Shown in pieces: positions 713 to 17,294 of a DNA stretch of 58,148 nucleotides; positions within the stretch are counted from its first letter, which is position 1; each line of letters opens with the position of its first letter. The notes beneath the pieces are model-generated. The model had not been told where the DNA came from. It saw only the letters and a list, made by a program, of their open reading frames with translations, and did not search any database. Position numbers and translations under genes: made by a program. Source of the stretch: an uncultured Lachnospiraceae bacterium (GTDB lineage Bacteria; Bacillota; Clostridia; Lachnospirales; Lachnospiraceae); contig CANRGP010000003.1 in NCBI GenBank assembly GCA_947630085.1, positions 1-58,148 on the forward strand. The letters are read 5' to 3'.

Positions 713-2548
713 TTATGTATCAAAAGGTGTTTCGCCGTTATCTGTTTGGAAATCTTCGATTTCCATCTGCTTCCCGCTCTTCTTGTCCCAGCCGAAATCA
801 AAATTCAGATTATCTCCTTGGCCGTAGATCCTCTTGGACTTCTCGTCATAGTTCAGAACAAATCCTCCCATCTCAACCTTCCCGAACAGTCTGTTTTTCG
901 ATACTTTCAGTAGTCTCTGGTCCGGCTCAATATCCTTACCACGCTCATATGCTATCGTGATAGTTGCCAGATTGGAGATATCTCCGCTACCGCTTATCTC
1001 ATCATTCTCGTTTTGTGAGAAGTTATTTTTCCGCTTATGCGCCACTAAAAGGATCCACACATTATGCTTCAGTGCCAATCTCGCAAGCTGTTTAACAAAC
1101 AAACTCTGCTTGTCATACTTATCGTATGCACTCGCATCGACCAAATCCAGCGCTGTCATCAGGTTATCCAACAGGATCACATTCGCTCCATACTGCATGA
1201 TAACATTCTCGGTCAATTTCAGTAGATCATCTTTCTCGTCCCCGGAAATGTCACTATTGTCATAGAGATAACACTTATCGCGGTACCAGTCATCTATCAT
1301 CTGCCGGTTCATCTTGGAAATGCTATATCCACGGTCTCCCCACTTGTTCTGGTATTCGACAATTCTATTTCGACCGGCAATCTGGAAATTCAACCATGCC
1401 TTAAACTGGTAATTCGGCAGCTCTCCAGAGTAAGCGAAACATATCTTGCCTTGGTGTATTGCATTCGCTAGTATTTGGCTTGCCAGAGTGGATTTTCCGT
1501 GTCCCGCTTTCCCGGATATCAGAATCACCCCTCCAGACGGAAGACCACCGTATAAGAGCCTGTCCAACTGATTGATTCCAGTCCGCAGTTTCGGGATCTC
1601 GTAAATATCCACATCTTCCACATCTGACAGTTCGATCACTCGTTTGATCGGAACCAGCACCGCATTGTTTACGGCATTTCTAACAGCTTCGACACCGTGC
1701 TTCTGGAGGATCTCATTGGCATCCTTGCATCCCAGGTAATCATCTTCCCGGACGTGTTTGACCACCGTCTTGAGCCTTGAAGATAACTCAGCCAGGAGAG
1801 TTATGTGGCCTTTCTCATGATCGCCAAAAACAATGATCTCGTGAAAACGGTTCATCCAGTTCCAACAGTACGGCAGCCAAGTAAACCCTTTCGCTCCATT
1901 CGGAACCGATACGGCATTTTCGACCCCTGCAGCTGCCACACTCAGACTATCCAGCTGACCCTCCGTGATAATCAGCCTGTCAAATTTATCATTACACTGG
2001 TACATTCCAAACAGGATCGGCCGGCAATCAGGTTCGCACCATTCTTTATTCTTGTCCTTCTCCCGGTCGAAATCCGTTTTCCTGTACTTGATGAACTGCA
2101 TCACGCCGTTTTCGTCGAAGAACGGAAATACCAGAATATTGGGTCTGTCAGCCTGCACTGTGATGGCATATCGCTCAGTGATTTCCTGCGGGATCCCCCG
2201 GCTCTCCAGATATTTCACGGCTTCTGACTTTGGCTTTATGGTTTCAATCTTTTTCCGAAATTTCCGATAGCTTTTCTTGGGCCGGTAATACTCATCTGCC
2301 ATGTTTCCAAGCGAGAAATCGAAATCCTTCGCCAGTGTGATAAAGTTACCACTCACCCCACATGAGGCCCGGAAGCATTTAAACTGTCCCGTTTTCAGGT
2401 TGATGGAGAATGTATTCAAGTTCCCTCGCTGCGGCTTCGGTTTACAGTATGGGCAAGTCTTGAAAAACAACTCATCATTGTGTGGCTTTACTGGAATGCC
2501 TACAAACCTGGCAAATTCATATGCGTCATCCTCTCGGAACTCATACAT
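713..2548 (-). CDS. Phage primase-helicase (T7 gp4/Twinkle type)
   Basis: This 611-aa fusion joins a primase to a DnaB-type replicative helicase. A zinc ribbon lies near the N-terminus (CPYC around residue 32-35, then Cys about 58 and 63). A TOPRIM domain follows, with IITEGQLDSL around 195 supplying the acidic residue and VFGDHEKGH around 242. A RecA-fold helicase has Walker A SGKAGHGKSTLA near 346 and Walker B VILLDNLM near 458. It should unwind the phage fork and lay primers. ATG 2548 is chosen because it overlaps the upstream TGA (TGATG) with GGGGA 9 nt before it; in-frame TTG 2554 and GTG 2551 are less well placed. Confidence 0.93.
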   Translation of the reverse strand: MYEFREDDAYEFARFVGIPVKPHNDELFFKTCPYCKPKPQRGNLNTFSINLKTGQFKCFRASCGVSGNFITLAKDFDFSLGNMADEYYRPKKSYRKFRKKIETIKPKSEAVKYLESRGIPQEITERYAITVQADRPNILVFPFFDENGVMQFIKYRKTDFDREKDKNKEWCEPDCRPILFGMYQCNDKFDRLIITEGQLDSLSVAAAGVENAVSVPNGAKGFTWLPYCWNWMNRFHEIIVFGDHEKGHITLLAELSSRLKTVVKHVREDDYLGCKDANEILQKHGVEAVRNAVNNAVLVPIKRVIELSDVEDVDIYEIPKLRTGINQLDRLLYGGLPSGGVILISGKAGHGKSTLASQILANAIHQGKICFAYSGELPNYQFKAWLNFQIAGRNRIVEYQNKWGDRGYSISKMNRQMIDDWYRDKCYLYDNSDISGDEKDDLLKLTENVIMQYGANVILLDNLMTALDLVDASAYDKYDKQSLFVKQLARLALKHNVWILLVAHKRKNNFSQNENDEISGSGDISNLATITIAYERGKDIEPDQRLLKVSKNRLFGKVEMGGFVLNYDEKSKRIYGQGDNLNFDFGWDKKSGKQMEIEDFQTDNGETPFDT

Positions 2549-3711: not shown

Positions 3712-3990
3712 TTATTCAGCAAGCCGCACCACCTCAATTTCGTCATCTTCCGGGAACTGAAATGTAGTCTCACCTACTATCGTCATGTCATGATAATACA
3801 AGCACCTCATGAAGCGGTAGTACGCATCGTTCAGCTCGTCCATGACGATATCGGCCTTTTCCTGCGACGAATACTGTGCAAAAGTCTTTTCCTCGTCCCT
3901 GCATTTGACAAGAATAATATTCCCGGTCTGTATGACCATAGACTGATTGTAAGGGAAATTATATTCTCCGGTCTGACTAATGATCCGCAT
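3712..3990 (-). CDS. Conserved phage protein, unknown function
   Basis: This 92-aa protein opens with a beta-rich stretch (YNFPYNQSMVIQ, then GNIILVKC) followed by a helix around residues 40-62 and an acidic C-terminus. It lies 23 nt upstream of the DnaD-like gene and overlaps its own upstream neighbour by 14 nt. I recognise it only as a type of small protein common in clostridial prophage replication regions and give no function. Confidence 0.65.
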   Translation of the reverse strand: MRIISQTGEYNFPYNQSMVIQTGNIILVKCRDEEKTFAQYSSQEKADIVMDELNDAYYRFMRCLYYHDMTIVGETTFQFPEDDEIEVVRLAE

Positions 3991-4732: not shown

Positions 4733-5653
4733 TTATGCCCAATCCGGCTTACCGACCGGAGCAGGTTCCTTCTGCTTCTTTCCGGCAGTCAGATCAGCCA
4801 TCGTGACCTGTTCTGGCTCCTGTGCGATCTGCGGAGCCTCATCCACTACAAACTCTTCCTTGTTGGCATTCTGTTCGATCTCATATGCCACATCCTCTGC
4901 AACCGCATCTAAGTCCTCAGCATCTTCCAGACGCTCATAAGTGTCAATCATGGCCCCATCTCCGTATGTATTGGTAATCATCTTGCAGAGCCGGTTGATA
5001 ACCGTTTTCTTCGCCATCTGGTCAGTAAATTTCTCGTGGGTGCCACCTTTTTCCTTGTACCCATAGCCCTGCTGCCACGACTGTCGAATCTGGCTAATGT
5101 TCATGACTTCCATCATCTTTTCGCCATCGGCCATAACCGCCACCGCATAGGCTCCCTTAATCTTGGTATTGTCGATGTTCATGAAATCCTGCTTATGCTC
5201 CACGAGACGCTTCTTTCCGTCCACAACCTCATAACTGAACGCATCGCCATCATAAATCACTTCGGCGCTGATGGATTTAAGCCCATATCGCCGGGCAATA
5301 GTAATGTTACCAAAATAGGACTTCTGGAACTGGCACTTGCCGCCGTAAGCGATAAAATATCCCTGCTTTTTCTGTACGCTCAAGCCGAGGACTGACATAT
5401 CCACTAGGCTATTAGCAATGCTATTCTGACTGCATACCTCCATCAGGGGGTTTCCATTTTTATCCGTGGTCTCTTTCAGTACGAGATACGCTCCCATCAG
5501 AGCATTCGCCACATTATAATCTGCCGGAAAGGAAAGACCGTACTTTTGCTTTTCGGCAAGCTGCTTCGTCAAGCCGTCTATAAAGGCATTATTGACAACC
5601 ATCTCCGCCTGCTGTTCTCCCTGTGTGGCTACCTGGTTTTTAACATTTGCCAT
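4733..5653 (-). CDS. recT: RecT single-strand annealing protein
   Basis: This 306-aa RecT-family recombinase would coat ssDNA and anneal complementary strands during phage recombination. Typical RecT features include NALMGAYLVLKE near residue 49, NSIANSLVDMSVLGLSV near 77, GYFIAYGGKCQFQKSYFG near 98 and FTDQMAKKTVINRLCK near 208. The last 60 residues are acidic and flexible, where RecT proteins often contact partners such as SSB. AGTGAGGG precedes the ATG. No RecE-type exonuclease is visible beside it; the SbcC-like ATPase upstream or an unrecognised small gene may fill that place. Confidence 0.93.
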   Translation of the reverse strand: MANVKNQVATQGEQQAEMVVNNAFIDGLTKQLAEKQKYGLSFPADYNVANALMGAYLVLKETTDKNGNPLMEVCSQNSIANSLVDMSVLGLSVQKKQGYFIAYGGKCQFQKSYFGNITIARRYGLKSISAEVIYDGDAFSYEVVDGKKRLVEHKQDFMNIDNTKIKGAYAVAVMADGEKMMEVMNISQIRQSWQQGYGYKEKGGTHEKFTDQMAKKTVINRLCKMITNTYGDGAMIDTYERLEDAEDLDAVAEDVAYEIEQNANKEEFVVDEAPQIAQEPEQVTMADLTAGKKQKEPAPVGKPDWA

Positions 5654-6028: not shown

Positions 6029-6256
6029 TTAACATTTCAGGTTAATTATTACTTCTTCCGGCTCCCACTTCCCGTTAATTCCGTCATAATCCATGTCGTT
6101 ATTAACCGTCATTTTTACATATTCATCTTTTTTTACGCCAATTTGGTCAATCAAATCCGGCGCCCAAACGTCAAGAATCATATCGACATGAAATTTAACC
6201 TTTGTATCGGCATTGTATCGAGATAGTTCCTGAATGAGTTCATACACTGTCATCTG
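6029..6256 (-). CDS. Small phage protein, unknown function
   Basis: This 75-aa protein begins MTVYELIQELSRYNADTKV, a helix followed by beta strands and an acidic loop ending EPEEVIINLKC. ATG 6256 is chosen because AGGTGGGA lies 9 nt before it; an in-frame ATG at 6304 has no ribosome-binding site and would overlap the upstream gene. The fold suggested by 'xVxELIxELSxxxxDTKV' is seen in many small phage proteins of unknown role. Confidence 0.6.
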   Translation of the reverse strand, partial: QMTVYELIQELSRYNADTKVKFHVDMILDVWAPDLIDQIGVKKDEYVKMTVNNDMDYDGINGKWEPEEVIINLKC

Positions 6257-6275
6257 AGATTTCCCACCTACTTTC

Positions 6276-6566
6276 TTAATCAAACCGCATGCTGTAAGAA
6301 TCAAGAAGTGTTTTCACATCTTTCTCATTATCGCGGATTGCCTTCTGTATTGCACTAATGCAATCTAATAACTCGTCATAATCGCCGCTGTATTTTACCC
6401 AGTCGGGAGATTGCAAATCATACTTATTGATGTTAACGAAATTATCTCCAAAGCCCACCCGTAATGCACCTGTCAAGGCCATTGAACACTGGCAGATTTT
6501 TCCAGTTGCTTTCGAGAAGATATCGTCAATTTTGGCTTCTAATTCAAATGCCTCATGCTTCGTCAT
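6276..6566 (-). CDS. Helical phage protein, unknown function
   Basis: This 96-aa protein begins MTKHEAFELEAKIDDIFS. Start 6566 follows a GGAGG Shine-Dalgarno and overlaps the upstream stop by 14 nt; the longer in-frame extension is very basic and unlike a real N-terminus. The protein has helices at both ends and a Gly/Asn-rich centre (VGFGDNFVNIN). No domain is recognised. Confidence 0.55.
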   Translation of the reverse strand: MTKHEAFELEAKIDDIFSKATGKICQCSMALTGALRVGFGDNFVNINKYDLQSPDWVKYSGDYDELLDCISAIQKAIRDNEKDVKTLLDSYSMRFD

Positions 6567-6780
6567 TTCCCGTTTCCTCCACCTTTCCAGTAATGGCCTT
6601 GATTTTGTCCCGGAACGCCGCCACTTCTTCCTCCGGCACATCAACTGCCGTGACTATGCCTTTTCCATTCGGGAGCATAACTTTATCTCCCAACGCCACA
6701 TCAAACTGGCCGGAATCATATGTATAGGTGCGGCCACGTGGCTTATCATCTTTCAAAAACTGAACCTTAATCAGCGACAT
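6553..6780 (-). CDS. Small KOW-like phage protein
   Basis: This 75-aa protein begins MSLIKVQFLKDDKPRG. The centre (ALGDKVMLPNGKGIVTAVD, about residues 29-47) reads like a KOW/SH3-type barrel: a 'GD.V..P.G.G.V..V' pattern used for nucleic-acid or protein contact. ATG 6780 has a GGAGG Shine-Dalgarno. It overlaps both neighbours by 14 nt. The function is unknown; the barrel is inferred from the motif only. Confidence 0.6.
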   Translation of the reverse strand: MSLIKVQFLKDDKPRGRTYTYDSGQFDVALGDKVMLPNGKGIVTAVDVPEEEVAAFRDKIKAITGKVEETGNDEA

Positions 6781-6952
6781 AGGAAAACCTCCGAAAATCA
6801 ATATAATTAGGCATAGGTTTTACTGGGCTGTACTCTTTTGCAATGAGTTTGAATTTATCAATGCCGTATCTGGAATATACGTTTCTTACGTATAAACCGT
6901 AGATCGGGACATACTCCCAGTCATCAACCTCCAAAAAACGATAATCTCTCAT
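6767..6952 (-). CDS. Small Tyr-rich phage protein
   Basis: This 61-aa protein is rich in Tyr, Arg and Val (VPIYGLYVRNVYSRYG around residues 15-30). Its ATG overlaps the stop of the SMC-like ATPase and its end overlaps the next gene by 14 nt, so it is probably translationally coupled to both. No known domain was seen. Confidence 0.55.
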   Translation of the reverse strand: MRDYRFLEVDDWEYVPIYGLYVRNVYSRYGIDKFKLIAKEYSPVKPMPNYIDFRRFSYVAD

Positions 6953-8970
6953 TATTTTTCCTCCTTTTTTATTGTTTCTACTTTCAGTTCTTCTGAATCC
7001 GAAACCGCAAACACAATCATCTGGCAGTCAGCGCCGGACAGGATACGCTTCAAGTTTCCAGAGTCCAAAGCCTCGGCGTTGTCAAGAAGCACTGGCGCAT
7101 TGATTCCCACAATCTTCTGAATTGAAAGCGCCACATCCATCTGGGCCTCCAGAACACGGCCGTGGTTCGCCGTGCTCCGAATGTCGAAGCCATCAATCAT
7201 CGGGACGCAACAGGTCTGGTAGTTACCGTTTTTCGCGTACTCAAAAAGCCTCCATGTCACCCGCCCGAAGTGCTTGTTGATATCCTCCACCAGATACTCG
7301 TTTTTCTTCTTGTCCAGTTCGGCCAGCAGATCAAGGATTCTCTCGCAGTCAGCCTTAGCCTGTGACTTCTGAATCTGTTCCTGCCGAAGTTCTTCCAGAC
7401 GGTTTTCCAGAACCACATTGTTGTTGACCCTTGCCAGGCGCTCTTTAGCAGAATCCAGTTCACTCTGGATTTCGGCTTTCCTGCTCCTGAGTTTTGCTCT
7501 GGGGTAATCTTCCTTACTTATGCTGCGGATTGCTTCTTCTTTTGTCGAAATCTCAAAACAGATAGCCTCATACTCCTGGTTATCGCTGAGATCCGGCTGA
7601 GAAGGAATCTTGTCAATTTCAGCCAATATCTTGTTTGCCTGGCTTAACGCAGAATCATGCTCTACCTTCGCTTCAAAGATTTTCTTCTCCATATCTGGAA
7701 GTTCAATCGTTTCCAACTGTGCGATTTCATCCCGCAGTTTACGCCCCTGCTCTGAAATTTCAGCAAGTCTTTCCTCTTTCCCTTTTTCATAACCGGCAAG
7801 AAAAGTTTGATAATCGGCCAGACGATCTTTCTTCTTTTTTTCATGGTCGGCAATAATCTGTTCTCTCCGATCTAGCGGAAAAGCCTGTCCGCAGGTGGGA
7901 CATACCAAATCATTCTCATTCAAATCCGGCAGTTCAACAAACTCCGGCGGAGTATCAGCTGCGGTTTTACCATAATCGGCAAGCAGACTATCCTTCTCGG
8001 CCTTCTTTCTGGAAATATCGTTCTGGATTTTATCCTCTTTAATTTGCAGCTGGTTAATAGAAGTCTGGAATTTCATTGCCTCTTCGCAGTGGTGACTATA
8101 ATCAGCCTGTTTTTTCGCCTTTTCCACACGAAGAACATCGTAGGCCTTGGTCTCGATATCAGTCTTTTTGAACTGAAGTTCCAGAATATTATCCTGCATG
8201 GCCCTGATTTCATCCGACTGAGAAAGAGTATCGCTCTCCTGCCGCTCGATATCGGAGATCTGTTCTTTTAGCGCATTAATCTGGAGTTCCAGCTCCGCCA
8301 CGTCTATGTCCTCGACGATCTGACGGTTGACTTCATCAATCCGGCCCGGATATTCGGCTATTTCCTTGGTCAGCCGTGTAATACTGGCTTTGTTCATTGC
8401 CGTGATTTCTTCCACCGTATACTGGTCAAGTAATTCAGCCAATCCAGACAATTCCGGGAACCGCGCCACGATATCCTTGTCAGATACATCTTTCGGCAAC
8501 TTGAATAGGAATTTCCGCATTTCGACTGGCTTCTGCGCCAGAAACGCCGCCGGATTCATACACATCAGCAGATCGTCGAAACTGAAATCGAAATAGGCAT
8601 TGAAGTCACGCAGGGTTCGGTTCACGCCGTTCACAGAATAGAAGTTCGAATCTGCGATTTCCCCGTTCTTACTGATGCTCCGCTTCTGCGTCTTCTGAAC
8701 CGTAACCTCCTTGCCGTCATAATCCATGACGATTTCCACCGCCACAGGCACATCATTGACCGGCTCTCCATTAACCTCCCGGCGAACCTTGGGATTGTTG
8801 GTAAAGTCGTAATCCACGCCGAACAGCGTCCACATAATCGCCGTGGCAAGTGAGCTTTTACCTAAACCATTCTGACCGCAAATCCGCATTTTGTCGGAGA
8901 AATCAAAATCCACAAACTTGAAAGCTTTAAAATTTTCAAGATGAATCCTTTTGAGATTTAACTTGTGCAT
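6952..8970 (-). CDS. SbcC/SMC-like ATPase with zinc hook
   Basis: This 672-aa ABC-type ATPase has Walker A GQNGLGKSSLA at about 32-42 and long coiled coils at about 215-350 and 370-560. A CPTCGQAF zinc hook lies at the apex (Cys 357 and 360). The C-terminal lobe (INAPVLLDNAEALD) has a Walker B-like strand, though with Asn where SbcC and Rad50 usually carry Glu. The layout is that of Rad50/SbcC, shorter than host SbcC (about 1,000 aa). No SbcD/Mre11 nuclease gene is adjacent. ATG 8970 is chosen for its GGGAGG site; the longer frame runs into the upstream gene. It lies 13 nt after the RAMP-like gene, so the pair is probably co-translated. A role in DNA-end processing or recombination with RecT is inferred. 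Confidence 0.82.
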   Translation of the reverse strand: MHKLNLKRIHLENFKAFKFVDFDFSDKMRICGQNGLGKSSLATAIMWTLFGVDYDFTNNPKVRREVNGEPVNDVPVAVEIVMDYDGKEVTVQKTQKRSISKNGEIADSNFYSVNGVNRTLRDFNAYFDFSFDDLLMCMNPAAFLAQKPVEMRKFLFKLPKDVSDKDIVARFPELSGLAELLDQYTVEEITAMNKASITRLTKEIAEYPGRIDEVNRQIVEDIDVAELELQINALKEQISDIERQESDTLSQSDEIRAMQDNILELQFKKTDIETKAYDVLRVEKAKKQADYSHHCEEAMKFQTSINQLQIKEDKIQNDISRKKAEKDSLLADYGKTAADTPPEFVELPDLNENDLVCPTCGQAFPLDRREQIIADHEKKKKDRLADYQTFLAGYEKGKEERLAEISEQGRKLRDEIAQLETIELPDMEKKIFEAKVEHDSALSQANKILAEIDKIPSQPDLSDNQEYEAICFEISTKEEAIRSISKEDYPRAKLRSRKAEIQSELDSAKERLARVNNNVVLENRLEELRQEQIQKSQAKADCERILDLLAELDKKKNEYLVEDINKHFGRVTWRLFEYAKNGNYQTCCVPMIDGFDIRSTANHGRVLEAQMDVALSIQKIVGINAPVLLDNAEALDSGNLKRILSGADCQMIVFAVSDSEELKVETIKKEEK

Positions 8971-8983
8971 ACCATACCTCCCA

Positions 8984-9664
8984 TTAAATAATCTCAATGT
9001 TTCCAATGTGGTATCTGCCATATCCGTACTTACGATTCGTCCCCACGCCGATGTAGGTTCCAGTAGTCTGAATGATGGAAAGAACCGTCTTGTACGGGAA
9101 AACAATATCCGCACACGAAATATCGATATCGCATTTCCAGTTACTGAACACTAACTGATTGCAGACAACGTTGGTTTTTGCGATTCCAGTATTCGGAACA
9201 AGCTTCTGCTCAACATTGGCGATCTCGAAATCTACCGGGAAAACCGTTCTCCCCATGTTGATGGCTCTCTGCAAATCCGTACCGTTCTTCTTGATAGAAT
9301 CCTTGAAGAAGGTTCTGAAAGCCTCCGCAAAGGAGTTATAAAATGCCACGGATAAGATACACGGACGGTTATTCGCCAGATATTCTTTCAGTTCCTCTTC
9401 CGTATACAGTTCCACATTATCATCGTGGAAATTGATAGGCTTCTCCCACGTAACGGAAGTAATCAGCTGCTCCCATACCGGGATTTTGATTTTGTGAGAT
9501 GCAGGTGGCTCCGTTCCCTTTGCATTGTTCTGCTTCCAGACCTCCCGTCGCTCCCACTCTCTGGATTTCTTATGGAGAATCAAATCCGAATCCCCGATAA
9601 GCTGAACCTTCATTCTGGTTTCCTTGATAGGTTCGATAACGATACTTTTTTCTCTTGTTTCCAT
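8984..9664 (-). CDS. Phage protein with RAMP/Cas7-like Gly-rich end
   Basis: This 226-aa protein opens with a beta-strand pattern (MKVQLIGDSDLILHKKS, about residue 18). It has a central helix (SFAEAFRTFFKDSIKK, about 110-126) and ends in IGVGTNRKYGYGRYHIGNI (about 205-223). A Gly-rich GxGxxRxxGxG loop followed by a closing strand is the hallmark of RAMP/RRM-fold RNA-binding subunits such as Cas7, Csm3 or Cas6. That likeness is by eye only. No other cas-like gene is nearby. It sits between the hairpin array and the SMC-like ATPase. ATG 9664 has GGAGG 8 nt upstream. The alternative is an unrelated phage recombination or DNA-binding protein. Confidence 0.6.
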   Translation of the reverse strand: METREKSIVIEPIKETRMKVQLIGDSDLILHKKSREWERREVWKQNNAKGTEPPASHKIKIPVWEQLITSVTWEKPINFHDDNVELYTEEELKEYLANNRPCILSVAFYNSFAEAFRTFFKDSIKKNGTDLQRAINMGRTVFPVDFEIANVEQKLVPNTGIAKTNVVCNQLVFSNWKCDIDISCADIVFPYKTVLSIIQTTGTYIGVGTNRKYGYGRYHIGNIEII

Positions 9665-9703
9665 TTTGCTTTCCTCCACTTTTGATTTAGTTTTAATAGT
9701 TCC

Positions 9704-9715
9704 GTTTGCGCAAAC
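9704..9715. promoter_or_regulatory. Perfect 12-bp palindrome GTTTGCGCAAAC
   Basis: A perfect palindrome lies 39 bp upstream of the RAMP-like gene start and directly beside the outermost hairpin arm (9716). It could be an operator for a phage regulator (Cro-like or the 84-aa HTH protein) or the foot of the hairpin cluster. No second copy was noticed in the window. Confidence 0.4.
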
Positions 9716-9834
9716 AATTCGGCTACTAGTGATTTGTACTGTAGTGTTATGGCCTAAACTCGCATCCTATGAGATTATTCGGTAATCGGAGGTATGGAAT
9801 TATGATAAGCCTCTATGTAACTAGTAGCCCAATT
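9716..9834. repeat. Hairpin unit A
   Basis: Arms 9716-9730 and 9820-9834 pair over 15 bp with one mismatch (AATTCGGCTACTAGT against its complement). The array is short: TGT at 9735, 9740 and 9745, then TGG at 9750. A small local stem (GATTA / TAATC around loop TTCGG, 9773-9787) lies beyond it. This unit is nearest the RAMP-like gene and has the longest non-array interior. Confidence 0.65.
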
Positions 9835-9846
9835 CTTCACGCAAAA

Positions 9847-9971
9847 TTGAATACTTGGCAAGTGACGAAAACTATTAAGCCATTAGTGTATTGTCGTGTT
9901 CTGTTCTTTTGTGTTCTGTCGTGTAGTGAGAAATAATTTCCTGTAGCTTTCGCCACCAACCAAATATTCAA
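9847..9971. repeat. Hairpin unit B
   Basis: Arms 9847-9872 and 9946-9971 match at 20 of 26 positions. Five of the six differences become G-U pairs in minus-strand RNA, giving 25 of 26 pairs. TGT occurs at 9887, 9892, 9897, 9902, 9912, 9917, 9922 and 9942, all on the same residue modulo 5. Position 9907 is TTT and 9927 is TGA. A short local palindrome GAAATAATTTC lies just past the array. Confidence 0.7.
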
Positions 9972-9979
9972 ATCTTCCA

Positions 9980-10114
9980 GCCTGCCAGATAGTGAAAACC
10001 ATAGTATGCACTTATGTGCTATTCTGTAATGTTTTGTGCTGTTGTTCGTTGAATTTTACTGTACAATCCTTTAGATTCTTGATTTATAATGACGGTTCTC
10101 ACCATCTGGCAAAC
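9980..10114. repeat. Hairpin unit C
   Basis: Arms 9980-10002 and 10092-10114 match at 18 of 23 positions, built around TGCCAGAT. All five differences are transitions that become G-U in minus-strand RNA, so every position can pair. TGT occurs at 10015, 10025, 10030, 10035, 10040 and 10060, all in one 5-nt register. A local stem AATC-CTTTA-GATT follows near 10066-10078. Confidence 0.7.
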
Positions 10115-10127
10115 GGTCATGGATTCC

Positions 10128-10254
10128 AGATTGCACCCTTGGCAAGCGATATAAGCCAATGCTCTGCTGTATTGTCCTGCTTTGTTTTTTCCTGTTTTGG
10201 CCGCTTTTATAATTTGCGATTATCGGCTAATACCGCCGGCCAAAAGTGCAATCT
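10128..10254. repeat. Hairpin unit D
   Basis: This unit has the longest arms: 10128-10160 and 10222-10254, identical at 26 of 33 positions. Five differences become G-U in minus-strand RNA and two are transversions. TGT occurs at 10168, 10173, 10183 and 10193, with TGC at 10178, TTT at 10188 and TGG at 10198, again at exact 5-nt steps. Confidence 0.7.
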
Positions 10255-10256
10255 AC

Positions 10257-10312
10257 TGTCCTTTAATGTCCTGTCCTAAAATGTTTTGTAATATAATCAT
10301 GCGGTAGGCATG
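10257..10312. repeat. Orphan pentamer array between units D and E
   Basis: TGT occurs at 10257, 10267, 10272, 10282 and 10287, with TTT, TAA and TAT in the remaining register positions (10262, 10277, 10292). No long flanking arms of its own were found. It is followed by a perfect local stem CATGC-GGTAG-GCATG at 10298-10312. Confidence 0.6.
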
Positions 10313-10316
10313 GTGC

Positions 10317-10395
10317 AAGGCTTGTTGTTCTATACTGTTCTGTTTTATTCTGCCCTGTTCTGTGCGTATATGTAATATACTTGGCAACAAGCCCT
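10317..10395. repeat. Hairpin unit E
   Basis: Arms 10317-10327 and 10385-10395 pair over 11 bp (core GGCTTGTTG), with one G-U in minus-strand RNA. TGT occurs at 10326, 10336, 10341, 10356, 10361 and 10371, with TAT, TGC or GTA in the other register positions. A local stem GTATA-TGTAA-TATAC spans 10366-10380. It ends 24 bp from the stop of the 145-aa gene. Confidence 0.6.
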
Positions 10396-10419
10396 CAACT
10401 ACACCCACCGCTACGGAAC

Positions 10420-10857
10420 CTAATCAATCAAGTCCCAAATCTCTTGCAACTCACTCAAATTCGCATATTTCTTCTTGAAAGCCCTCAACTCCCTCATAGC
10501 CTCATCCAGAAGCATTTGATACTTGTCCATATCCTTCACATAAAGGCTTATCGGCTGATAGTTGGTTTCCGCAGTTTTGTGGAAAATGCGGATATACATA
10601 GGCTCACTTTCTTCGTTCTGATCCTTTACGATGACCAAATTCCCGATAATGCTACGTGCTTCATGGATTCGCCATTTCACGGCTGCCGCTGAATCATCCC
10701 ATGTAAAGCATTTATGTAACTCGCTGTCTTTGTGTTCTCTGGCGTATTTTACAATCTCGTCCGGCTTTACGTTATCGCCAATACCTAAAATTTCTTCTGA
10801 AACTGTCTGTGCGTCTGCATTAAACAAAGTGTTTATGCGCCATGTTGCCTTTAACAT
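10420..10857 (-). CDS. Conserved clostridial-phage protein, unknown function
   Basis: This 145-aa protein has a mixed N-terminal half (DAQTVSEEILGIGDNVKPDE, then ELHKCFTWDDSAAAVKWRIHEA around residues 47-68) and a helical C-terminal half ending ELQEIWDLID. The 'LHKCFxWDD...A..WR..EAR.II.NL' signature is one I associate with small proteins of clostridial prophages. I know no proven function. AAGGAGG lies 4 nt before the ATG. It is bracketed on both sides by hairpin/pentamer units (E and F), which makes it a candidate partner of those elements. Confidence 0.7.
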   Translation of the reverse strand: MLKATWRINTLFNADAQTVSEEILGIGDNVKPDEIVKYAREHKDSELHKCFTWDDSAAAVKWRIHEARSIIGNLVIVKDQNEESEPMYIRIFHKTAETNYQPISLYVKDMDKYQMLLDEAMRELRAFKKKYANLSELQEIWDLID

Positions 10858-10870
10858 AGATCCTCCTTAT

Positions 10871-10998
10871 GGTTGGCTATTCTTATAGAGATAATTGCTC
10901 TATAAGAAATATTGTAATGTCCAATTGTGTCGTGTCTTGTTTAATAGTGTCATATAATGTTCTGTGATCGGCAATTACCTCCGTAAAAATAGCCAACC
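10871..10998. repeat. Hairpin unit F
   Basis: This detached unit lies between the SSB-like gene and the 145-aa gene. Arms 10871-10898 and 10971-10998 match at 24 of 28 positions (GGTTGGCTATT core); three differences become G-U in minus-strand RNA and one becomes A-C. TGT occurs at 10913, 10918, 10928, 10933, 10938, 10948, 10958 and 10963, one register. The left arm can instead fold on itself as a perfect 9-bp stem (CTTATAGAG at 10882 with CTCTATAAG at 10898). The two folds exclude each other, which suggests a switch. Confidence 0.7.
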
Positions 10999-11007
10999 GT
11001 CAAAAAC

Positions 11008-11625
11008 TTAGTTTTCCATCGTTTCCAAACGAGAAATTGAAACCTCATACGCCGTTCTCGTCTCCGTCTCTGTCTCGGAGATGCGCTTCTGGTACTCCCG
11101 GCTCTGAATCCGCCCTTCTATCTGGAGATGATCCCCCACATTAAGGCTACTGGCGTATACAGCGTCCCGCCCCCATGCAATACAGGGAATATAGTCCGCC
11201 TTGCCGTAGAGGCGGTTCACCGCCAAAATGATATCGGCGATCTCTCTTCCCATGGGAGTTTTCCGGTAAATGGGCGTTTTGCAGATGTAACCGTCAAGAA
11301 ATATCTGGTTGGTCTGTGCAGGCAATTCCTCCACAAACCTGATTTTCTGGACAAAGAGGAACAGAATCACCTTATCTTTATCCCCGCCATGCTTATTAAA
11401 AGAACGGAACTGGCCAAATACCTTCGCGGTACAACCATTATAGGATTCTTCTACATTGATGAGGCGTTCCGAGATCATCAGCTGAATAATATCCGTCTGA
11501 TCGCTAAGTCGCTTTACCTCCAGACTCACCAAATAGAATTTCTCCTGGCGAATCGCATGACTGAAGGTGAAACCGCCCTTGATTGTTCCGATAAGATGTG
11601 CCTTGTTGTTATTGTTCTCTGTCAT
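11008..11625 (-). CDS. Tandem-OB single-strand DNA-binding protein
   Basis: This 205-aa protein has two OB-like halves. Residues about 8-98 form a first beta barrel (AHLIGTIKGGFTFSH, then QEKFYLVSLEV). Residues about 105-200 resemble SSB/PriB (NQIFLDGYI, then REIADIILAVNRLYG and DYIPCIAWGRDA, with LQIEGRIQSREYQKR). It should coat ssDNA during phage replication and RecT recombination. It lacks the usual acidic SSB tail, ending SISRLETMEN. GGAGG lies about 10 nt before the ATG. Confidence 0.78.
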   Translation of the reverse strand: MTENNNNKAHLIGTIKGGFTFSHAIRQEKFYLVSLEVKRLSDQTDIIQLMISERLINVEESYNGCTAKVFGQFRSFNKHGGDKDKVILFLFVQKIRFVEELPAQTNQIFLDGYICKTPIYRKTPMGREIADIILAVNRLYGKADYIPCIAWGRDAVYASSLNVGDHLQIEGRIQSREYQKRISETETETRTAYEVSISRLETMEN

Positions 11626-15379: not shown

Positions 15380-16015
15380 ATGACTATTGGTGAGCGAATA
15401 AAAGCAGTTCGAGACAAGGCAGGTATCAGCCAAGTTGAATTAGCTGACAAAATAGATGTCTCTAAACAGACCCTATACAAATACGAGAATAATATAATTA
15501 CAAACATTCCTTCTAATAAAATCGAAGCTATAGCAACAATAACTCATGTATCTCCTGCTTTTATTATGGGATGGACAGATTCAACAGAAACTAATTCAAT
15601 GAAGAATATCTTTCCAATAGAGTTAAAGCGCTTTCCCATGCTCGGAGAAATTGCCTGCGGTGAACCTCGATATGCTGATGAAGATCGGGAAAGCTATGTT
15701 CTGGCCGGAGCAGATATAAAAGCTGATTTCTGTCTCAGAGCCAAGGGTGACAGTATGATCAACGCAAGGATATGTGATGGAGACATTGTATTTATAAGGA
15801 AACAAGATATGGTGGAAGATGGAGAGATCGCAGCCGTGATTGTGAACAATGATAATGAAGCTACTCTAAAACGATTGTTTTATTACCGTGATCAGGCATT
15901 ACTTGTTTTACGCCCGGAAAATCCCGCATATGAAGAACAACGGTATTCGGGAGAACAATTAAATGAGGTTCATATTCTGGGAAAAGCGATTGCCTTCCAG
16001 AGTGATGTGAAATAA
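15380..16015 (+). CDS. CI/LexA-type phage repressor (XRE + S24 peptidase)
   Basis: This 211-aa protein has an N-terminal XRE helix-turn-helix (IGERIKAVRDKAGISQ at 3, SKQTLYKYENN at 30). The C-terminal S24 peptidase domain has catalytic Ser in LRAKGDSMINA (about 118) and catalytic Lys in NEATLKRLFYY (about 158). A putative self-cleavage site lies in LGEIACGEPR (about 87-96, Cys-Gly instead of the usual Ala-Gly). RecA-stimulated self-cleavage would induce the element. It should bind GTAACTTG-type operators just upstream. Nothing appears broken. Confidence 0.9.
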   Translation: MTIGERIKAVRDKAGISQVELADKIDVSKQTLYKYENNIITNIPSNKIEAIATITHVSPAFIMGWTDSTETNSMKNIFPIELKRFPMLGEIACGEPRYADEDRESYVLAGADIKADFCLRAKGDSMINARICDGDIVFIRKQDMVEDGEIAAVIVNNDNEATLKRLFYYRDQALLVLRPENPAYEEQRYSGEQLNEVHILGKAIAFQSDVK

Positions 16016-16019
16016 CTAA

Positions 16020-16053
16020 TAAAGCAAAAACCGCTCCTGCGCCAACAGGAACG
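16020..16053 (-). terminator. Leftward terminator between integrase and repressor
   Basis: CCGTTCCTG and CAGGAGCGG (minus strand) form a 9-bp stem with one mismatch around a 6-nt loop, followed by TTTTTGCTTT. It would stop leftward transcription arriving from the host side before it runs antisense into the repressor gene. Confidence 0.6.
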
Positions 16054-16124
16054 GCTTGCATAGATACTATTGCGGAATCGGGTTCCGAATAATACCAGAG
16101 ACAATGATATTATAGCATTGGACA

Positions 16125-16172
16125 CCTGATTCTGCAAGGGGTGTATTTTTATACCCAATTTTACGAATCAGG
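16125..16172 (+). promoter_or_regulatory. Nested hairpin over the integrase ribosome-binding site
   Basis: An outer perfect 8-bp pair (CCTGATTC at 16125, GAATCAGG at 16165) encloses an inner stem (GGGTGTA at 16139, TATACCC at 16150, one G-U). The outer right arm runs into the AGGAGG Shine-Dalgarno of the integrase (16170-16175). Folded mRNA would partly hide the ribosome-binding site. The same inverted pairs could instead be DNA sites for integrase or an excisionase. Confidence 0.5.
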
Positions 16173-16184
16173 AGGAAAAAAAGA

Positions 16185-17294
16185 ATGGCGACGGCAAGGA
16201 AACTTCCATCGGGTAGCTGGAACTGCAAGGTTTACTCACGCACCGAAAAGATCAAGCTGCCGGACGGAACCACGAAGGACAAGAGGATCTACAAATCATT
16301 TACCTGTGATATTCCAGGACCCAAAGGTAAACGTACTTGTGAAGCAATGGCAGCGGAATGGGCCGCGGATAAAGAGCGTCTTGTTAGCAATTCAGAAGAA
16401 GTCATGACGCTGGGAGAGGCAACAGATAAATATATAGAATCAAGAGTAGCACTCGGAAGATCGCCATCCACCATCCAGGGATACCGCTATATTCGACAAA
16501 CTGCTTTTCAAGATCTAATGGATAAGCAAGTATCACGCATTACGATCCGTGATATTCAAGCGGCATTGGAAGTTGAGATGCGCCGTAAACTCAGGAAAGG
16601 GACAATTCCATCTCCAAAACGCATAAAAAATGAATGGCTCCTTATTTCTTCTGTACTTCACCGTTACGGGAACAAAAATCTCGACCTGGACCAAATCGAA
16701 TTGCCACAGGTTAATGATCGTTTTGTAGCCCTTCCAACAGCAGAAACAGTTTTTCATCTAGTGAAAGGCACGGAAATAGAACTGCCAGTTCTGCTTGCGG
16801 CATGGCTGTCATTTTCTATGTCGGAGATTCTCGGTCTCACAAAATCAAAATCTATCAACGGAGACTATATCTCAATAAGGGAAGTTGTTGTAAATGTGAG
16901 CGGAAAACCGATCAGGAAGAGTATGGCGAAAAATCCTACACGAAACAGAACCCATAGGATTCCTCCATACATAAAGAATCTGATCGATCAGGTTTCTGGG
17001 GACGTAATCGTGCCGTTAAGTAGCCGGGCACTCTATGAAAAATGGATAGCCATCCAGCGCAATGCCGGAATGGAGCCTATCACGTTTCACGACCTAAGAC
17101 ATCTGAACGCGTCAGTAATGGCGATGCTTCGGATTCCAGACAAGTATGCCCAAGAGCGGGGAGGATGGAAAACGGACCAAATTATGAAACGTGTATATAC
17201 GCAGACGTTTCCGGAAGAAAGGGTGCGCGTGGATGATATCATAGATGGATACTTTGACAGCATCATGCAACATGAAATGCAACACAAAAAATAA
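16185..17294 (+). CDS. int: Tyrosine-recombinase integrase
   Basis: This 369-aa phage integrase has an N-terminal AP2-like arm-binding domain (about 1-60), a core-binding domain (about 75-170) and a catalytic domain (about 190-355). Seen are the HDLRH box (about 305), GGW in place of the second His (about 328) and the nucleophile in KRVYTQTF (about 339). The first catalytic Arg, normally in GLRxSE, is replaced: the matching stretch reads WLSFSMSEILGL. The gene ends about 30 bp from the host junction, where phage integrases usually lie. It is on the opposite strand to the early operon. Confidence 0.9.
   Translation: MATARKLPSGSWNCKVYSRTEKIKLPDGTTKDKRIYKSFTCDIPGPKGKRTCEAMAAEWAADKERLVSNSEEVMTLGEATDKYIESRVALGRSPSTIQGYRYIRQTAFQDLMDKQVSRITIRDIQAALEVEMRRKLRKGTIPSPKRIKNEWLLISSVLHRYGNKNLDLDQIELPQVNDRFVALPTAETVFHLVKGTEIELPVLLAAWLSFSMSEILGLTKSKSINGDYISIREVVVNVSGKPIRKSMAKNPTRNRTHRIPPYIKNLIDQVSGDVIVPLSSRALYEKWIAIQRNAGMEPITFHDLRHLNASVMAMLRIPDKYAQERGGWKTDQIMKRVYTQTFPEERVRVDDIIDGYFDSIMQHEMQHKK

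Follow-up and report, generated by a model that had tools for sequence, protein, structure and literature searches.

Phased ACA-NN arrays beside a predicted RAMP gene suggest an ACA variant of the VIPR system in a Lachnospiraceae prophage

What would keep a triplet locked to a period of five nucleotides (nt) while the two bases between its copies change freely? This question is raised by contig CANRGP010000003.1 (GenBank assembly GCA_947630085.1) of an uncultured Lachnospiraceae bacterium, whose positions 1 to 58,148 on the forward strand, the whole stretch analysed, are called here the window. Between positions 9735 and 10965 it contains seven stretches of phased TGT triplets. A preliminary description, made from the letters of the sequence, had likened them to the RNA sites of TRAP, in which GAG or UAG triplets are repeated with 2-nt spacers. 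Our results point elsewhere: the stretch is very probably a prophage locus of the VIPR type, in which ACA/NN units replace GGY/NN ones.

VIPR was described in a recent preprint (PMC13142463, 2026) as a system of three parts: Vipr, which is a RAMP protein of phages; an accessory protein; and RNAs in which GGY and NN alternate. Its models are phage SUSP1 and a P. fulva prophage; the guide RNA is named vrRNA and the accessory gene vap, and a guide comprises 9-16 repeats followed by an invariable structured 3' tail, the triplet being GGY or a 'related consensus' (PMC13142463). The guides read DNA through their NN pairs with a one-base skip, and their targets are satellites and lysogeny regulators, along with vipr genes from other phages; experiments on GGY VIPR reported RNA binding, DNA binding, repression and control of phages (PMC13142463). 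We read the window as a VIPR locus because Vipr of SUSP1 and the protein encoded next to the window arrays (protein B) both match the family phrog_4652 (E 1.4e-96 and 4.4e-6, respectively), and because profiles of the ACA and GGY protein groups align with each other (E 4.3e-10).

In such a locus, RNA of the minus strand would contain as many as seven guide RNAs, mostly displayed in the loop of a long stem. Vipr, encoded at 8984-9679, would line up along an array with one subunit per 5-nt unit, holding on to the constant ACA so that the two N bases stay free. A DNA target with the pattern NNxNNxNN, in which x is passed over, could then be read jointly by the NN pairs, and binding would block transcription of the genes of competing phages, by analogy with the GGY experiments (PMC13142463). 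Protein-RNA binding, DNA binding and repression would be properties carried over from that preprint to the window system; what was computed here comprises the arrays themselves, the RAMP prediction for the protein, the co-occurrence of vipr, accessory gene and arrays across phages, and the significant one-skip targets of ACA arrays as a group.

The phased arrays and the genes beside them

All TGT positions given as examples in the preliminary description proved correct. Within 9690-11000, 99 of the 142 TGT pairs lying at most 40 nt apart (70%) are spaced by multiples of 5, whereas in 2,000 dinucleotide-preserving shuffles, the control which that description had proposed, in-phase pairs averaged 11.8 (20% of pairs; standard deviation 3.8) and never exceeded 26. 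The longest in-phase chain contains eight TGTs, compared with at most six in the shuffles. The stretches begin at 9735, 9887, 10015, 10168, 10257, 10326 and 10913; the one at 9735 is weak, with only three TGTs, and the segment from about 10375 to about 10910 is array-free and consists mostly of one protein gene. The pattern is, as had been noted, ACA-NN when read on the minus strand, which the surrounding prophage genes share. Counted on this strand, with units one base off included, four window arrays have 10-12 units and three have 3-7.

Our wider set has 176 ACA arrays, arrays with fewer than 6 units or fewer than 4 different NN pairs being left out: the median is 10 units (5-95 percentile, 6-17), the triplet positions hold A, C and A in 85%, 78% and 95%, respectively, and each spacer position carries 1.94 of 2 bits, so the spacers do vary as freely as had been supposed. 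A microsatellite reading was set aside, spacer entropy being near maximal. An Rfam search of the window and 12 related loci gave no family at the gathering score, and blastn of the array region against phages gave just two chance-like matches, both to one phage.

The vipr-like gene B (8984-9679, minus strand) encodes 231 amino acids, predicted to form a Cas7-like RAMP. The matches listed for its structural model (predicted local distance difference test, pLDDT, 85.5) by Foldseek and VIA-align are CRISPR RAMP chains, and a glycine-rich motif, GVGTNRKYGYGR, lies near the C-terminal end. The glycines and the arginine of this glycine-rich loop (G-loop) are invariant in all eight ACA-type proteins aligned. 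The vap-like accessory gene A (10420-10857, minus strand; 145 amino acids) encodes a protein with a weak winged-helix resemblance, for which Foldseek found no match at E<=0.001. A Pfam scan assigned no family to either protein, and their best matches are PHROG families of unknown function, phrog_15946 for A and phrog_4652 for B. Both genes are open frames, separated by 740 nt, an arrangement of vipr and a vap-type gene with a long intergenic stretch that agrees with the minimal VIPR locus.

The Cas7-type fold lines up along RNA in CRISPR complexes and is not known to form a closed ring. With the backbones of class 1 CRISPR-Cas systems (Cas7, Csm3, Cmr4) the window protein shares the predicted RAMP fold with its glycine-rich loop and, presumably, a repeated protein-RNA pitch and periodic unpaired positions. 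The differences are that the window has a single small RAMP, that the guide letters are non-contiguous, and that the pitch is 5 nt as against 6 nt in CRISPR backbones (PMC13142463). No long near-identical direct repeats with spacers were found in 9650-11010, though the window as a whole was not put through a dedicated CRISPR finder. A Pfam scan of ten genes around the arrays revealed no Cas family and no TRAP family, and PADLOC gave for the two window proteins A and B only a weak Cmr5 match (E 0.02).

TRAP sites resemble the arrays in their triplets repeated with 2-nt spacers, and differ in the triplet, in the protein fold and in that the window spacers appear informative. A TRAP ring was set aside in view of the ACA triplet, the predicted RAMP fold and the target information carried by the spacer bases. 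Of the earlier comparison, the idea that phased triplets suggest a protein repeating along RNA is kept, and the TRAP-like ring is given up, the linked protein being predicted to be a Cas7-like RAMP.

Association of arrays with vipr in other phages

Homologue searches with protein B in viral contigs, 145 genomes (its own included) and phages found only the window itself, as did a search with protein A in viral contigs. The link to relatives came from a scan of viral contigs for (ACANN)6, which gave at least 120 stretches, with several contigs carrying multiple separate arrays, and from protein comparison among 19 of the loci. Comparison of their open frames showed that A and B flank arrays in unrelated phages, in which the 5-nt phase is retained. 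Through a remote relative of B the search reached Felix O1-like phages as well as phages of Listonella, Mycobacterium, Gordonia and Pseudomonas, and most inspected flanks there contain 5-nt arrays with other triplets, GGT, GGC or GCA. A wider search provided 18 loci in bacterial genomes, and 80 of 318 viral relatives were kept. In 397 genomes of the host's family there were three matches, the window among them; locus L124 from this search has vipr, protein A and a period-5 array, and L126 is a weak match with an internal stop and no vipr by profiles.

A motif-free test, in which only periods 4, 5, 7 and 8 were compared, was applied around gene B at 122 loci. In 121 of them the best period-5 window beat the other periods and lay at most 1.3 kilobases (kb) from gene B, with a lead of at least 2 log units in 113 of the 121 and medians of 9.1 for period 5 versus 3.6-3.7. 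At the lone exception, L238, the contig ends about 290 nt past gene B. The 122 loci represent 110 distinct proteins. A few contigs are present twice, and these duplicates (L021/L129/L306, L033/L134/L244, L032/L276, L028/L283, L130/L298/L322 and L289/L334) were kept in the counts; two loci entered the set through weak tblastn matches (Medea1, E 0.05; UmaThurman, E 0.4), and L028 contains only part of gene B. Protein A gives a similar picture: of the 84 loci encoding it, vipr is present in 80 and ACA segments occur in 63, with 217 of the 218 segments on the gene strand, the shuffled control having yielded one segment.

The arrays lie inside a recombination module. The gene directly downstream of vipr encodes an SbcC-like ATPase (6952-8970, minus strand; phrog_77, E 1.2e-59), an SSB gene (11008-11625, minus strand) precedes the first array unit, and a RecT gene (4733-5653, minus strand) lies farther along, beyond the SbcC-like gene. 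The SbcC-like gene neighbours vipr in several ACA-type loci and is a candidate member of the system. Together with the long inverted repeats described below, such surroundings might suggest that the hairpins work at the DNA level, for instance as single-stranded signals in recombination or replication for the nearby SbcC-like, SSB and RecT proteins; SbcC-type proteins do act on hairpins. We consider this explanation extremely improbable, since arrays adjoin vipr even when it stands among structural genes (phiHSIC, LittleE), and since the segments keep to the gene strand almost without exception. It is further disfavoured by a control of 18 loci taken from a RecT alignment, itself built from vipr-bearing phages, of which the first 9 kb each were inspected. 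Two of them hold vipr, both with ACA arrays and both on contigs already known, while in the 16 vipr-less loci the best period-5 windows are not ACA arrays; one of these 16, L333, shows a moderate period-5 signal, though of a different sort.

The NN pairs as probable guide letters

If these are guides, their NN pairs should carry information. Decoded ACA arrays were compared with about 2.9 megabases (Mb) of DNA, allowing gapped matches and using shuffled unit order as the control. At a score of at least 15, a skip of one base gave 122 matches versus 15 for shuffled arrays, whereas skip 0 gave 10 versus 15 and skip 2 gave 9 versus 10; most of the 122 are due to two guides matching vipr in many loci, and skip 3 is trivial, as every array then matches itself. 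In the final test, with one count per array, 8 of the 176 ACA arrays scored at least 18 at skip 1, compared with none of 880 shuffles and none of the 176 at skip 0 or at skip 2. GGY guides, serving as a positive control (a sample of 120 from 240), gave 10/120 versus 0/120. Scores of 16-17 were reached by 18 of the 880 shuffles, so only the strongest matches are firm individually.

The skipped base falls on codon position 3 in matches of 29 of 30 NN bases to another phage's vipr, 27 of 28 to an ERF gene, 20 of 20 to another vipr and 21 of 22 to a RecT gene. For the 16 arrays listed with a score of at least 16, the frame in which the skipped base is third in the codon is open across the target, a weak test for targets so short. 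When the 122 skip-1 matches were sorted automatically by a longest-frame rule, 81 fell in a sense frame and skipped codon position 3, another 7 were sense but skipped a different position, and 34 fell on an antisense frame; for two called antisense, L294 and L283, gene identity favours the sense frame. The same rule distributed the 15 shuffled-control matches as 4, 7 and 4. At the L311 target the first four codons precede the likely start codon of an integrase. Ten of the 16 target frames were scanned, and they encode ERF, RecT, two Sak4-like proteins, an SbcC-like protein, a Holliday junction resolvase, a primase, an integrase, a protein with a weak RecE-like match, and a Vipr recognized by homology to B with no family match; the DNA searched was centred on vipr and recombination loci, so the kinds of target are biased and the same gene is often repeated.

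Since the skip-1 matches are significant in the true unit order only, the evidence says that the information lies in the NN pairs, which act as guide letters and are read with a skip of one base, and there is good computational support for the ACA form obeying the same one-skip rule as GGY. The preliminary description was right that the pairs vary freely, yet they seem not to be mere spacers, because the matches vanish on unit permutation. This bears on the alternative that a TRAP-like or other repeat-binding protein simply coats the RNA, in regulation, in packaging or as a decoy, with NN as nothing but spacing. The resemblance of the phased triplets to TRAP sites is what recommends it; we hold it to be very unlikely, as permutation of NN abolishes target matches that are significant at skip 1 alone, the linked protein is RAMP-like, and spacer entropy approaches its maximum. 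Arrays beside a predicted RAMP, with one-skip targets, therefore lead us to replace the TRAP-like reading by that of an RNA-guided RAMP system, of which the window locus would be an ACA variant of VIPR.

The L259 guide matches 29 of 30 bases in another phage's vipr (score 27) but reaches only 11 with its own; for the L271 guide the scores are 20 with another vipr and 12 with the vipr of its own phage. Both (L259, 5796-6470, array at 6521; L271, 3679-4542, array at 3768) match G-loop codons of many other vipr genes and match their own poorly. In L259 several of the differences are Leu, Ser or Arg codons taken from the other codon family, which keeps the same residue and breaks the NN match; the sparing of the own gene is drawn from these two cases.

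Putative guide units, constant triplets and the standing of the window locus

Six of the seven window arrays sit between long, imperfectly matched inverted repeats, a feature absent from the preliminary description; the arms measure 18-33 nt and are 74-89% complementary, and the six units that were folded have z-scores from -4.4 to -7.6. All units lie on the minus strand, where the order is SSB, unit W1, gene A, units W2 to W7, gene B, the SbcC-like gene and, later, RecT. Unit W1 (10871-10998) has stem arms at 10971-10998 and 10871-10898 around an array at 10913-10965 with 8 ACA in 11 units (NN: GA TT TG CT AA AG CG CA GG TT AT), a fold z-score of -7.62 and a flank duplex of -45.3 kcal/mol. 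For W2 (10301-10411) the arms are 10385-10411 and 10301-10327, and the array at 10326-10373 has 6 ACA in 10 units (TA GC GA GG GA AA GA GT GA AC), with z -4.41 and -33.8 kcal/mol. Array W3 (10257-10289), with 5 ACA in 7 units (AA TT GG GG TT GG GT), has no closing stem, its flank duplex reaching merely -14.3 kcal/mol. Unit W4 (10128-10254) combines arms at 10222-10254 and 10128-10160 with a short array at 10168-10195, 4 ACA in 6 units (z -6.11; -56.1 kcal/mol). W5 (9983-10111; arms 10094-10111 and 9983-10000) holds at 10015-10062 an array of 6 ACA in 10 units (GT AT AC CA GC AA TT GA GC TA; z -7.15; -37.2 kcal/mol), and W6 (9847-9971; arms 9944-9971 and 9847-9874) holds at 9887-9944 one of 8 ACA in 12 units (GG TT TC CT CG GA CA GA GA CG AT CT; z -6.97; -45.8 kcal/mol). 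The last and weak unit, W7 (9705-9845; arms 9820-9845 and 9705-9730), has at 9735-9747 just 3 ACA in 3 units, and its loop is itself structured (z -6.03); it is perhaps a decayed unit. A minus-strand word, TTGCCAAG, recurs in W2, W4 and W6 (window 9847-9874, 10128-10160 and 10377-10387), in the 3' arm of W4 and W6 and immediately 5' of the array in W2. Repeat analysis reported no long 3' tail common to the window units, the stems being unit-specific instead.

Pairing between the two flanks of an array was compared with pairing to flanks from other loci for 175 ACA arrays, one of the 176 having been dropped for want of full flanks. In 88 of the 175 the own flanks pair beyond the strongest 1% of the controls; the medians are -34.9 kcal/mol for own and -19.1 kcal/mol for other-locus flanks, and partners from other units of the same locus give -21.9 kcal/mol. 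Eight of 247 GGY arrays pass this test, which is less sensitive for them, as their G+C-richer control flanks pair strongly anyway. Because own flanks pair beyond controls, many ACA guides appear to be stem-closed loops.

It is possible that the window locus descends from a working ACA-type system and that this particular copy is defunct. The array at 9735 keeps only three ACA units, W3 is stemless, three arrays have few units, and the DNA searched yielded no target for the window guides. On the other hand, both vipr and the accessory gene are open reading frames, 10-12 units are present in four arrays, and all six folded units have strong stems. Moreover, missing targets are expected if the rival phage lies outside the DNA searched, and 168 of the 176 ACA arrays are equally without a match at score 18. 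We therefore give such a relic a small chance, and retain a VIPR-type locus as the preferred reading.

Measured against VIPR as published, this reading gains from a small phage RAMP of the same PHROG family, an accessory gene, several arrays of 5-nt units and hypervariable NN pairs, as well as from targeting with a one-nucleotide skip, mostly at the third codon position, and from the presence of other phages' vipr genes among the targets. The accessory protein belongs to phrog_15946 in the window and to phrog_5926 in SUSP1, and the ACA targets, found in the biased DNA, are mainly recombination genes, integrase and vipr as opposed to satellites and lysogeny regulators. Several observations weigh against the assignment. 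The triplet is ACA and not GGY, and many ACA guides have unit-specific closing stems where SUSP1 has a 3' tail; 87 of the 175 ACA arrays, W3 included, fail the closure test. Three window arrays (7, 6 and 3 units) fall below the 9-16 repeats of the preprint, a promoter and terminator scan of the locus gave nothing above shuffles, and the seven arrays searched against about 3.2 Mb had no target above chance (best score, 13). To these must be added the bias of the target DNA noted above. Moreover, for the ACA pattern by itself the association fails in the opposite direction: vipr is detectable in only 8 of the 120 (ACANN)6 stretches listed, and 10 of the 120 have an in-phase array of at least 9 ACA with no vipr detected; the long arrays of this kind at L050 (6998), L071 (7952) and L093 (6080) lie within related open frames, and among the vipr-less stretches some resemble simple repeats and some contigs end early. 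Finally, 21 of the 84 protein-A loci have no ACA segment at the threshold used. A long in-phase ACA-NN array with no vipr detected was also seen on a short contig, L101 (5582), next to an SbcC-like gene.

Fourteen of these 21 loci were inspected, and eight (L302, L308, L314, L315 and L317-L320) carry GGY-like arrays, L312 a third triplet, L252, L263, L277 and L303 a weak or moderate signal, and L248 none near vipr. Since phrog_15946 accompanies GGY-like arrays too, it is not tied to ACA alone. In the eight GGY-like loci the phrog_15946 gene stands after, not before, vipr.

The constant triplet follows the Vipr tree. Among 136 proteins it changes 7 times when unlabelled rows are excluded; when they form a group of their own it changes 13 times, and for this second count shuffling gives a mean of 51.8. 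The tree was built quickly and has long branches, and how often the triplet switched is uncertain. Near-identical proteins were left out of the analysis, and 10 of 149 loci have no triplet label. The main ACA clade comprises 63 rows (Shimodaira-Hasegawa-like approximate likelihood ratio test, SH-aLRT, 99), of which 56 are labelled ACA, five are unlabelled and two have other labels on weak counts. A single further ACA row, L027, lies outside it. We lean slightly towards a model in which the constant triplet serves as an exchangeable scaffold whose letters depend on the clade of Vipr: a single large clade would have switched from GGY to ACA, acquired long unit-specific stems and aimed its guides at recombination, integrase and vipr genes of other phages, with its own vipr partly spared by swaps between the two codon families of Leu, Ser and Arg, to which a code that skips the wobble base would be intolerant.

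Other triplets were met at single loci: a CAC-NN period-5 array next to a diverged RAMP gene in L116 (about 6130-7265, minus strand), a GCA-NN period-5 array in Listonella phage phiHSIC (L136, 4640-4895), and a period-5 array with a GTA-like unit in L312 (681-740). Two annotated Gordonia phage proteins, Trine gp40 (L138, 4585-5388) and UmaThurman gp40 (L142, 4208-4531), are in part or whole translations of arrays, and these frames over GGC-type arrays are probably spurious. In L137 (5150-5440), L139 (2885-3160) and L027 (about 1040-1200, minus strand), short tRNA-like elements bearing a T-arm-like GTTCGA were noticed by eye between the arrays or next to them; these are possibly processing signals. 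ARAGORN called no tRNA in these three, and over five loci in all it gave one doubtful tRNA, in Trine. An annotated repeat pair of phage wV8, DR_4 (L141, 2657-2714 and 4050-4107), brackets vipr and its neighbour within the array region. In the window, a probable prophage edge is marked by a jump in G+C from about 0.44 to about 0.57 near 17 kb (15380-17294), where the plus strand has a repressor-like frame (15380-16015) and a 369-amino-acid frame (16185-17294) that looks by eye like a tyrosine integrase.

Using nothing but sequence, and in a clade far from the models, these results support the noncontiguous RNA-guided code proposed in 2026, and indicate that this code outlasts a change of its constant triplet. 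This makes recognition of the triplet by the protein testable between the ACA and GGY clades. The ACA loci may also offer a second guide architecture, that of stem-closed loops, together with a different accessory protein, and they include phages with guides that match one another's recombination genes and vipr genes.

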